DNA of 38,536 nucleotides, from NCBI RefSeq assembly GCF_023256435.1, contig NZ_JAGDXM010000041.1, positions 1 through 38,536 of the forward strand, read 5' to 3'. The position numbers and the translations under genes were made by a program. Under the pieces are notes generated by a model. It searched no databases. It had not been told where the DNA came from and saw only the letters and a list, made by a program, of their open reading frames with translations. Shown one piece after another: positions 27,036 through 28,671 of this stretch; the first letter of the stretch is position 1; every line of letters starts with the position of its first letter. This DNA is from Thermoplasma sp. GTDB lineage: Archaea > Thermoplasmatota > Thermoplasmata > Thermoplasmatales > Thermoplasmataceae.

Positions 27036-28139
27036 ATGTCTTTGGATTTTTCTAGGATCAATGGTTTCATAGTTATCGATAAGCCGCAGGGCCCAACTAG
27101 TCATCAGGTTGATTACTGGGTTAGGGATCTGATGGGAATAGAGAAGGTTGCTCATATAGGAACGCTGGATCCAAATGTCACCGGAGTATTAACCATGGCC
27201 ATAGGAAAAGCAGTACGGCTTGTGGATGTGGTGCATGAAAGCCCAAAGGAGTATGTGGGCGTGATGCGTTTCTATGAGGACATAACCGAAGATGAGGTAA
27301 AATCCTATTTCAGAAAATTTACTGGTAAGATATACCAGCTTCCACCCGTCAGAAGCGCAGTTGCGAGAAATCTGAGGGTGAAGACGATATACTCCCTTGA
27401 TCTGCTGGAAAAGAAGGATAAGATAGTACTCTTTCATGTCAAATGCGAGTCTGGAACCTATATACGTACTCTGTGCACCGACATAGGGTATGTTTCAGGC
27501 AAAGGAGGACAGATGGTCGATCTGCGCAGAATATCCACAGGGCCCTTTACAGAGGACAACTGCATAACTCTGCAGGATCTATCGGCCATGGTCGATCTCG
27601 CCAGGAACGGCGATGACGTGGCTCTACGCGATCATATTCTGGATATGACCTATGCCTTCAGGGATCATCCCAAGATAGTGGTAAAGAGGAGCGCGATGAA
27701 GAATATAGCACATGGTTCAGATCTATATGCTGGAGGCATAAAGATAATCAATGGAAAATTCAGGAAGGGAGATCGTGTGGCTGTCATCTCCGAGGACAAT
27801 GAACTGGTTGGAACCGGCATAGCGATGTGTAGCTCTGACAACATCTTTATGAAAGTAGTGGATTTCGATCATATATTCCTGGAGGCTGACGATGGAAAGA
27901 ATAATGTGGTACGGCAGCGGGAAGAGGCTGTTCAAAGATCTGGATCAGGATTACATAAGGATATTCAAAGAACTGAGAGAGGGAAAAATACCAGAACTGA
28001 ACGGGACAGGGGAGAAGCCAGATCTGAGAAGGCTGCTGATAGAGTATGGAAAGGAAAGGATAAGGGAAGAGTTCACCCCAGACCAGGCACTGATAAAGGT
28101 AGCTTCTATAAGAAACGCTCTGGACGAGATAATAAATAA
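27036..28139 (+). CDS. cbf5: tRNA/rRNA pseudouridine synthase Cbf5 (H/ACA RNP catalytic subunit)
   Basis: A 367-residue TruB/Cbf5 pseudouridine synthase. In archaea it is guided by H/ACA RNAs with Nop10, Gar1 and L7Ae, and also makes tRNA pseudouridine-55. Visible are GFIVIDKPQGPTSHQV, the catalytic aspartate motif GTLDPNVTGVL (about 43-53), ESGTYIRTLCTDIG, and a PUA domain (about 205-283). Residues from about 286 on are a non-conserved, strongly basic and charged tail, encoded by DNA that is nop5 in another frame. Leaderless start. Confidence 0.93.
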   Translation: MSLDFSRINGFIVIDKPQGPTSHQVDYWVRDLMGIEKVAHIGTLDPNVTGVLTMAIGKAVRLVDVVHESPKEYVGVMRFYEDITEDEVKSYFRKFTGKIYQLPPVRSAVARNLRVKTIYSLDLLEKKDKIVLFHVKCESGTYIRTLCTDIGYVSGKGGQMVDLRRISTGPFTEDNCITLQDLSAMVDLARNGDDVALRDHILDMTYAFRDHPKIVVKRSAMKNIAHGSDLYAGGIKIINGKFRKGDRVAVISEDNELVGTGIAMCSSDNIFMKVVDFDHIFLEADDGKNNVVRQREEAVQRSGSGLHKDIQRTERGKNTRTERDRGEARSEKAADRVWKGKDKGRVHPRPGTDKGSFYKKRSGRDNK

Positions 28140-28671
28140 ATATTATGAGAAGTGCCTTCCATTCTCCATACCATACCGGATAAACACATCGGGAGATCCC
28201 TGCCAATTCTTCAGGAACGGATCATCGATCGATGATATATCCACCATATTCAGGAAGGGATCGGATCTCTGCGATTTCAGATCCCAGATCGATGACAGCA
28301 TCAGGTTGAGAATAAGGGAGATTATGCCTAATACGACGGATCTTGTGGGCCCCAAGTTGGCTATGGATCTTCTTGAGAGATCACGCGGTCTGAAGCGTCT
28401 TGCCTTCATGCCGAGCAGTTCAATACAGATGCTTGGAGCAGAGAAAGCACTGTTTCAGGCCCTCGGCCATGGAAGGAAGAATCCAAAGTATGGGGTTATA
28501 TTCAAATTTCCAGGTCTGTCGGCCATAAACCCAAAGGCGAGGGGGAGAATAGCAAGGATCATAGCCAATAAGGTTGCTATAGCTGCCAGATCGGATCTGC
28601 TTGGAACACGGATAGACACAAAATCGATACGCGAGAAGATCGAGGATGAGATAAAAAAGGCGAAGAAATGA
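27892..28671 (+). CDS. nop5: Nop5-like C/D box RNP core protein (Nop56/58 family), short form
   Basis: A 259-residue member of the Nop5/Nop56/58 family, which scaffolds C/D RNPs for guided 2'-O-methylation together with fibrillarin and L7Ae. The Nop domain is clear in the C-terminal half: TDLVGPKLAMDLLERSRGLKR, MPSSSIQMLGAEKALF, KYGVIFKFPGL and ARIIANKVAIAARSD. It is much shorter than the archaeal Nop5 proteins I know (about 370-420 residues), with a reduced N-terminal domain. GGAGG six bases before ATG 27892 supports the start. No fibrillarin gene is adjacent. Confidence 0.88.
   Translation: MERIMWYGSGKRLFKDLDQDYIRIFKELREGKIPELNGTGEKPDLRRLLIEYGKERIREEFTPDQALIKVASIRNALDEIINKYYEKCLPFSIPYRINTSGDPCQFFRNGSSIDDISTIFRKGSDLCDFRSQIDDSIRLRIREIMPNTTDLVGPKLAMDLLERSRGLKRLAFMPSSSIQMLGAEKALFQALGHGRKNPKYGVIFKFPGLSAINPKARGRIARIIANKVAIAARSDLLGTRIDTKSIREKIEDEIKKAKK

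Follow-up and report, generated by a model that had tools for sequence, protein, structure and literature searches.

Can one stretch of 248 nt truly encode parts of two proteins of the RNA-guided modification machinery, Cbf5 and Nop5? The question is raised by a contig of Thermoplasma sp. (NZ_JAGDXM010000041.1), which was analysed at its whole length of 38,536 nt and is called the window here. An earlier note on this DNA had claimed that the two genes overlap on the same strand by 248 bases, and the coordinates it gave are exact: the cbf5 ORF runs over 27036-28139 and the nop5 ORF over 27892-28671.

Gene identities at the cbf5-nop5 locus

The overlapping pair is held in the gene run secY-adk-cmk-cbf5-nop5 (Table 1). 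Cbf5 has the TruB catalytic core and the PUA domain, and it scores 432 bits with NF003280 (equivalog cut-off, 242). Matches to the PUA and Cbf5 profiles stop at residues 270-295, and the basic tail that had been claimed to begin right after the PUA domain does so (82 aa, charge +12); the AF2 model predicts it to be disordered, with pLDDT <50 over residues 287-364. A strong ribosome binding site had been claimed for nop5 as well, and GGAGG indeed stands a few bases before its ATG (duplex energy -10.0).

Nop5 misses the NF011121 equivalog cut-off (128 bits vs 452), with only profile positions 234-377 matched. Its AF2 model is confident throughout (mean pLDDT 92.8) and aligns to 3nmu_A as well as to Sulfolobus Nop5, with both the Nop domain and the coiled coil present. 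The window Nop5 is a divergent short Nop5, without the full-length N-terminal fibrillarin-binding domain.

Table 1. Features of the cbf5-nop5 locus in the window
Feature	Coordinates	Strand	Evidence
cbf5, RNA-guided pseudouridine synthase (H/ACA RNP catalytic subunit), 367 aa	27036..28139	+	NF003280 E 9.3e-130, TIGR00425 E 6.9e-91; Pfam TruB_N, TruB_C_2, PUA
Cbf5 C-terminal tail, residues 286-367, 82 aa, net charge +12, K+R 30%, predicted disordered	27891..28136	+	Translation; AF2 pLDDT <50 at 287-364
nop5 (box C/D RNP scaffold), 259 aa, miniature N-terminal domain	27892..28671	+	Pfam Nop E 2.1e-34; AF2 mean pLDDT 92.8; Sulfolobus Nop5 3pla_A over 258 residues, Z 20.9
Dual-coding overlap, 248 nt, nop5 frame = cbf5 frame +1	27892..28139	+	ORF coordinates; conserved in 42 genomes / 12 genera
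Shine-Dalgarno GGAGG of nop5, within cbf5 coding sequence	27881..27885	+	Sequence cctGGAGGctgacgATG; anti-SD duplex energy -10.0

Nop5 is short across the whole order (about 260-300 aa). Its fibrillarin-binding N-terminal domain (window 27892-28071) has shrunk to ~60 residues, with fibrillarin kept. Residues 61-250 of the Nop5 model also give weak fold matches (Z ~8.5) to the IS621/ISCro4 bridge-RNA recombinases and to the TasH-tigRNA protein, which belong to RNA-guided systems with Nop-like parts.

We considered whether the Cbf5 tail stands in for a lost subunit. Nop10 scores above its cut-off in 41/41 genomes, Gar1 is matched in 40/41 (mostly under the Pfam cut-off), and fibrillarin is present. 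Hence, the tail replaces no lost Gar1, Nop10 or fibrillarin, all three being present (Gar1 by weak matches), and this candidate role was rejected.

Spread of the overlap and of the basic tail

The survey covered 69 genomes of the same GTDB family that carry cbf5 and nop5 on one contig, together with five genomes of the neighbouring family. Comparison with related genomes, which had been proposed as a check, bore the overlap out: 42 of the 69 family genomes, from 12 genera, have a long overlap of 194-248 nt, and its +1 frame is identical throughout. Two single-contig chromosomes of the window's own genus (G001 and G004) are among them, with overlaps of 248 nt and 206 nt, respectively. The other 27 genomes, from six genera (g3, g6, g11, g12, g13 and g16), have an overlap of at most 44 nt or a small gap, and these served as controls.

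The basic tail itself is found with and without the overlap. Five of the six genera with a short overlap or none encode it upstream of nop5 (50-88 residues, and 278 in g3); the sixth, g13, has only 19 residues. Tails have a median charge of +14.5 and a median length of 74 aa in overlap genomes, +14 and 62 aa in non-overlap genomes, and +3 and 9 aa in the neighbouring family, where 7-17 residues follow the PUA domain. Mixed tails occur in L045 (g5; 106 residues) and L051 (g8; 99 residues), in which about a quarter to a third of the tail has DNA to itself and nop5 encodes the remainder; these look like intermediates. Among 18 checked members of the wider phylum no basic Cbf5 tail was found, as 0-25 mostly uncharged residues stand in this place.

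Two of the non-overlapping genera are of interest in themselves. The 278-residue tail of g3 (L115, L089 and L090) is charged, rich in R, K, G and N, and encoded almost wholly upstream of nop5. Genus g13 (L048 and L049) is the sole genus of the family in which the tail is nearly lost, so that it is a natural tail deletion; its nop5 start is GTG or TTG, placed at the cbf5 stop codon.

The cbf5 frame is kept open and basic

We counted stops in the cbf5 frame of the 42 overlap genomes and found none in 2,943 overlap codons vs 492 in 8,314 codons of the remaining nop5, i.e. 1 stop per 16.9 codons there. Synonymous shuffling of nop5 in these genomes gives 209 expected stops in the overlap, where 0 are observed. 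The same shuffle of the same nop5 region in the 27 control genomes gives 153 expected vs 143 observed, and control genomes with the same nop5 N-terminus have 3-10 stops each. Exact conditional sampling puts the probability that the frame is open at 0.0004-0.02 for each genus, and the product is 1e-32 if the genera are taken as independent.

The charge of the tail was then compared with that imposed by nop5. Given openness, there is a charge excess in all 12 genera (z 0.55-3.7; Stouffer ~6.7 with the genera treated as independent); in the genus of the window itself the tail is only weakly more basic than nop5 imposes (z 0.8). From nop5 codons alone a charge of about +6 is expected vs about +15 observed; part of the basicity of the tail is a by-product of the nop5 codons. 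Controls have no excess in the corresponding frame (6.2 observed vs 7.4 expected).

A single genome is less telling. In 400 kb of a close relative, 6 of 294 genes (2%) are open in the corresponding frame over their first 81 codons, and none of these reaches a charge of +13 or more. The +1 frame is also less stop-prone in this control, with 4.0 stops per 81 codons vs 7.0 in the other frame. An open frame in one genome is only mildly unusual; the overlap goes beyond chance because it is retained open in 42 genomes of 12 genera. We conclude that the overlap is real and is under selection in both frames.

Synonymous change in nop5 is reduced in overlap genera

We compared within-genus differences in nop5 codons 1-63, relative to codons 91 to the end, between overlap genera and controls. 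Relative synonymous change in codons 1-63 is 0.64 in overlap genera vs 0.88 in controls (p 0.0024). At sites where T creates a cbf5 stop, the values are 0.59 vs 1.00 (p 0.0004), and at the other nop5 sites the difference is not significant (0.70 vs 0.77, p 0.11). Amino-acid change at the Nop5 N-terminus is lower in overlap genera than in controls as well (p 0.0008). Hence, constraint on both frames, another check that had been proposed, is seen as stop avoidance, charge excess and reduced synonymous change in nop5.

How closely the tail residues themselves are held was assessed in two ways. For a given nop5 identity, overlap genera mostly surpass controls in how similar their cbf5-frame products are. 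At nop5-synonymous A/G sites, K-to-E changes were examined for avoidance, and controls showed a drop similar to that in overlap genera. Our reading is that selection on the tail would mostly be to stay open and stay basic, with individual residues not fixed, which fits a disordered arm.

Age of the two frames and origin of the overlap

The nop5 start given in the earlier note agrees with the alignment of 39 Nop5 proteins, where M1 and W6 are invariant in overlap and non-overlap genera alike; the start residue is about the same in non-overlapping genera. The structural alignment pairs Nop5 residues 1-60 with the N-terminal domain that Sulfolobus Nop5 has in a catalytically active C/D RNP (3pla_A). 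Because the N-terminus is conserved from M1 and W6 and its model is folded like Sulfolobus Nop5, the nop5 frame is the ancestral one, and the overlap is predicted to encode the shortened fibrillarin-binding domain and the first coiled-coil helix.

In all probability the tail is older than the overlap and moved into the alternate frame of nop5 later, since tails of like size and like charge are found on non-overlapping DNA in five further genera and are absent outside the family. As none of the Thermoplasmata sampled outside the family carries it, the tail is also a lineage-specific invention. The resemblance to the eukaryotic dyskerin tail noted earlier thus stands for composition only, and homology was rejected, as those relatives have just 0-25 mostly uncharged residues.

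We built a tree from the Cbf5 core and the Nop5 C-terminal parts. On it the long overlap is one change, and the non-overlap genera g3 and g12 branch first. The overlap genera form one clade at low support (65/29), so a single gain is favoured only; the overlap may also have arisen once and been lost again in places, or have been gained more than once. Tandem duplication was considered as the route by which the overlap was resolved in g6 and was dropped, since the stop-ridden echo of the tail frame in nop5 is the alternate frame of nop5 itself.

From these comparisons we lean, at slightly better than even confidence, towards the view that a basic Cbf5 segment changed its DNA address: a tail on its own DNA would have been replaced in one clade by a reading of the nop5 alternate frame, with charge and length kept, so that one stretch encodes parts of the H/ACA and the C/D machinery under dual selection.

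Other explanations of the open frame

The strongest rival is that the open frame serves the control of translation, i.e. ribosomes that end cbf5 deep within nop5 prevent folding around the nop5 start or adjust its initiation, and the tail is a tolerated by-product. Two findings would fit such control: constraint is strongest at the stop-creating sites, and the nop5 start lies within cbf5, preceded by an SD-like site in 83% of the overlap genomes. However, it leaves unexplained why charge is raised beyond openness in 12/12 genera (z 0.55-3.7) and not in controls, and why five genera carry a tail of the same charge on non-overlapping DNA, where such control would be needless; we regard this explanation as improbable. 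We give considerably less credence still to a passive origin, in which nop5 protein conservation and codon bias leave the cbf5 frame open and the tail is translated junk. The frame is indeed the less stop-prone one (4.0 vs 7.0 stops per 81 codons), 2% of genes are open by chance, and nop5 residues alone give a basic product (about +6). Yet controls with the same nop5 N-terminus have 3-10 stops each, overlap genomes have 1 per 16.9 codons in the remainder of nop5, and the synonymous constraint is significant; the stop counts, the exact probabilities of openness and the stops in the rest of nop5 refute a passive reading of the openness.

A programmed +1 frameshift that also yields a Cbf5-Nop5 fusion protein is possible in principle, as every overlap genus has the same +1 offset. 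This phase is, however, the commoner one for overlaps generally (PMC10666635), nop5 brings a start codon of its own, ATG (GTG in one genome), mostly with an SD-like site, and the two proteins are made apart in non-overlapping genera, so we think a fusion very unlikely. Least credible of all, to the point of near certainty against it, is an artefact, either a misannotation with the true nop5 start past the cbf5 stop or a frameshift error that hides a stop near 27895. A survey that called all 715 co-directional overlaps >60 bp errors (PMC2478687) gives a prior for it. Against it stand the same frame in 42 genomes, a Nop5 N-terminus that is conserved from M1/W6 and folded in the AF2 model, and Nop5 proteins of non-overlapping genera that start near the same residue. 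The earlier note had named a sequencing error or polymorphism that gives a cbf5 stop near 27895 in other strains as what would overturn its claim; the 42 genomes, including the single-contig chromosomes G001 and G004, exclude this.

Proposed origin, translation and role of the tail

We return to dual coding and judge it quite probable that this is a true dual-coding region, in which a disordered basic Cbf5 tail is overprinted on the ancestral nop5 frame and acts as a flexible polycationic arm. The tail would first have been encoded on its own DNA upstream of nop5. It would then have moved into nop5 as successive cbf5 stops were lost, and the original tail DNA would have shrunk.

One mRNA from the secY-adk-cmk-cbf5-nop5 run presumably carries both genes. 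Some ribosomes would read cbf5 through to 28139, and others would start nop5 internally at 27892; the tail is probably translated, as there is no stop before 28139. Termination-reinitiation needs a stop within ~20 nt of the start and fades beyond (PMC10666635), and the nop5 start lies 248 nt before the cbf5 stop. Hence, independent internal initiation of nop5 is likelier than stop-coupled translation. In overlap genomes nop5 has its own ATG start codon (GTG in one), preceded by an SD-like site in 83%. The co-translation that had been suggested is thus likely only in the sense of one mRNA, and coupling through the cbf5 stop is unlikely. Among the papers searched, no proteome study that reports Cbf5 tail peptides was found.

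The ACA box and the lower stem are binding sites of the PUA domain in H/ACA RNPs (PMC7991803). Beside this RNA-binding domain, the tail may act as a flexible cationic arm that helps the H/ACA RNP to bind guide or ribosomal RNA more tightly.

Comparison with known systems

The shared stretch is far longer than has been believed real for same-strand neighbour genes in microbes. The survey of prokaryotes that dismissed every co-directional overlap >60 bp, 715 in all, as an error left holD-rimI of enterobacteria, at 56 bp, as the longest real one (PMC2478687). Like holD-rimI, cbf5-nop5 is a conserved co-directional terminal overlap of genes for unrelated proteins; holD-rimI spans at most 56 bp, whereas cbf5-nop5 spans 194-248 nt over 12 genera. 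Both frames are kept in length across orthologues and the second frame shows signs of purifying selection, so that by sequence the overlap would rank as genuine.

Thermus rnpA-rpmH (Feltens 2003, cited in PMC9841429) is, as described there, also a long same-strand overlap of two core RNA/ribosome genes in different frames, both expressed in Thermus. There, the 5' end of rnpA contains the nested rpmH, and the two have one shared start site (PMC9841429). In contrast, in archaeal cbf5-nop5 the 3' tail of cbf5 lies in the 5' part of nop5, and the separate starts are 856 nt apart.

In overprinted viral genes (PMC8227390), too, an old gene for a folded protein yields a new product when its alternate frame is read. 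Unlike these, the cbf5-nop5 overlap lengthens an enzyme that the cell already has and creates no new gene, and sister genera have an equivalent that is not overprinted. What is new here is a segment with alternate-frame encoding in part of one family and ordinary encoding in the rest. The sister genera with little or no overlap are natural controls, by which cellular (non-viral) overprinting onto a core gene can be traced.

Lysine-rich KKE/D tails are carried by eukaryotic Cbf5, Nop56 and Nop58, and such extensions are stated to be absent in archaea (PMC11528048). The tail described here is an example from archaea of a Cbf5 extension that is basic and disordered. It shares with the KKE/D tails the form of a disordered, charged C-terminal extension of Cbf5 past the PUA domain; unlike them, it is rich in R, K, G and N, with a mixed R/K/G/D/E sequence free of KKE repeats, is overprinted on nop5 and has an independent origin. 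This suggests that basic Cbf5 tails arose more than once.
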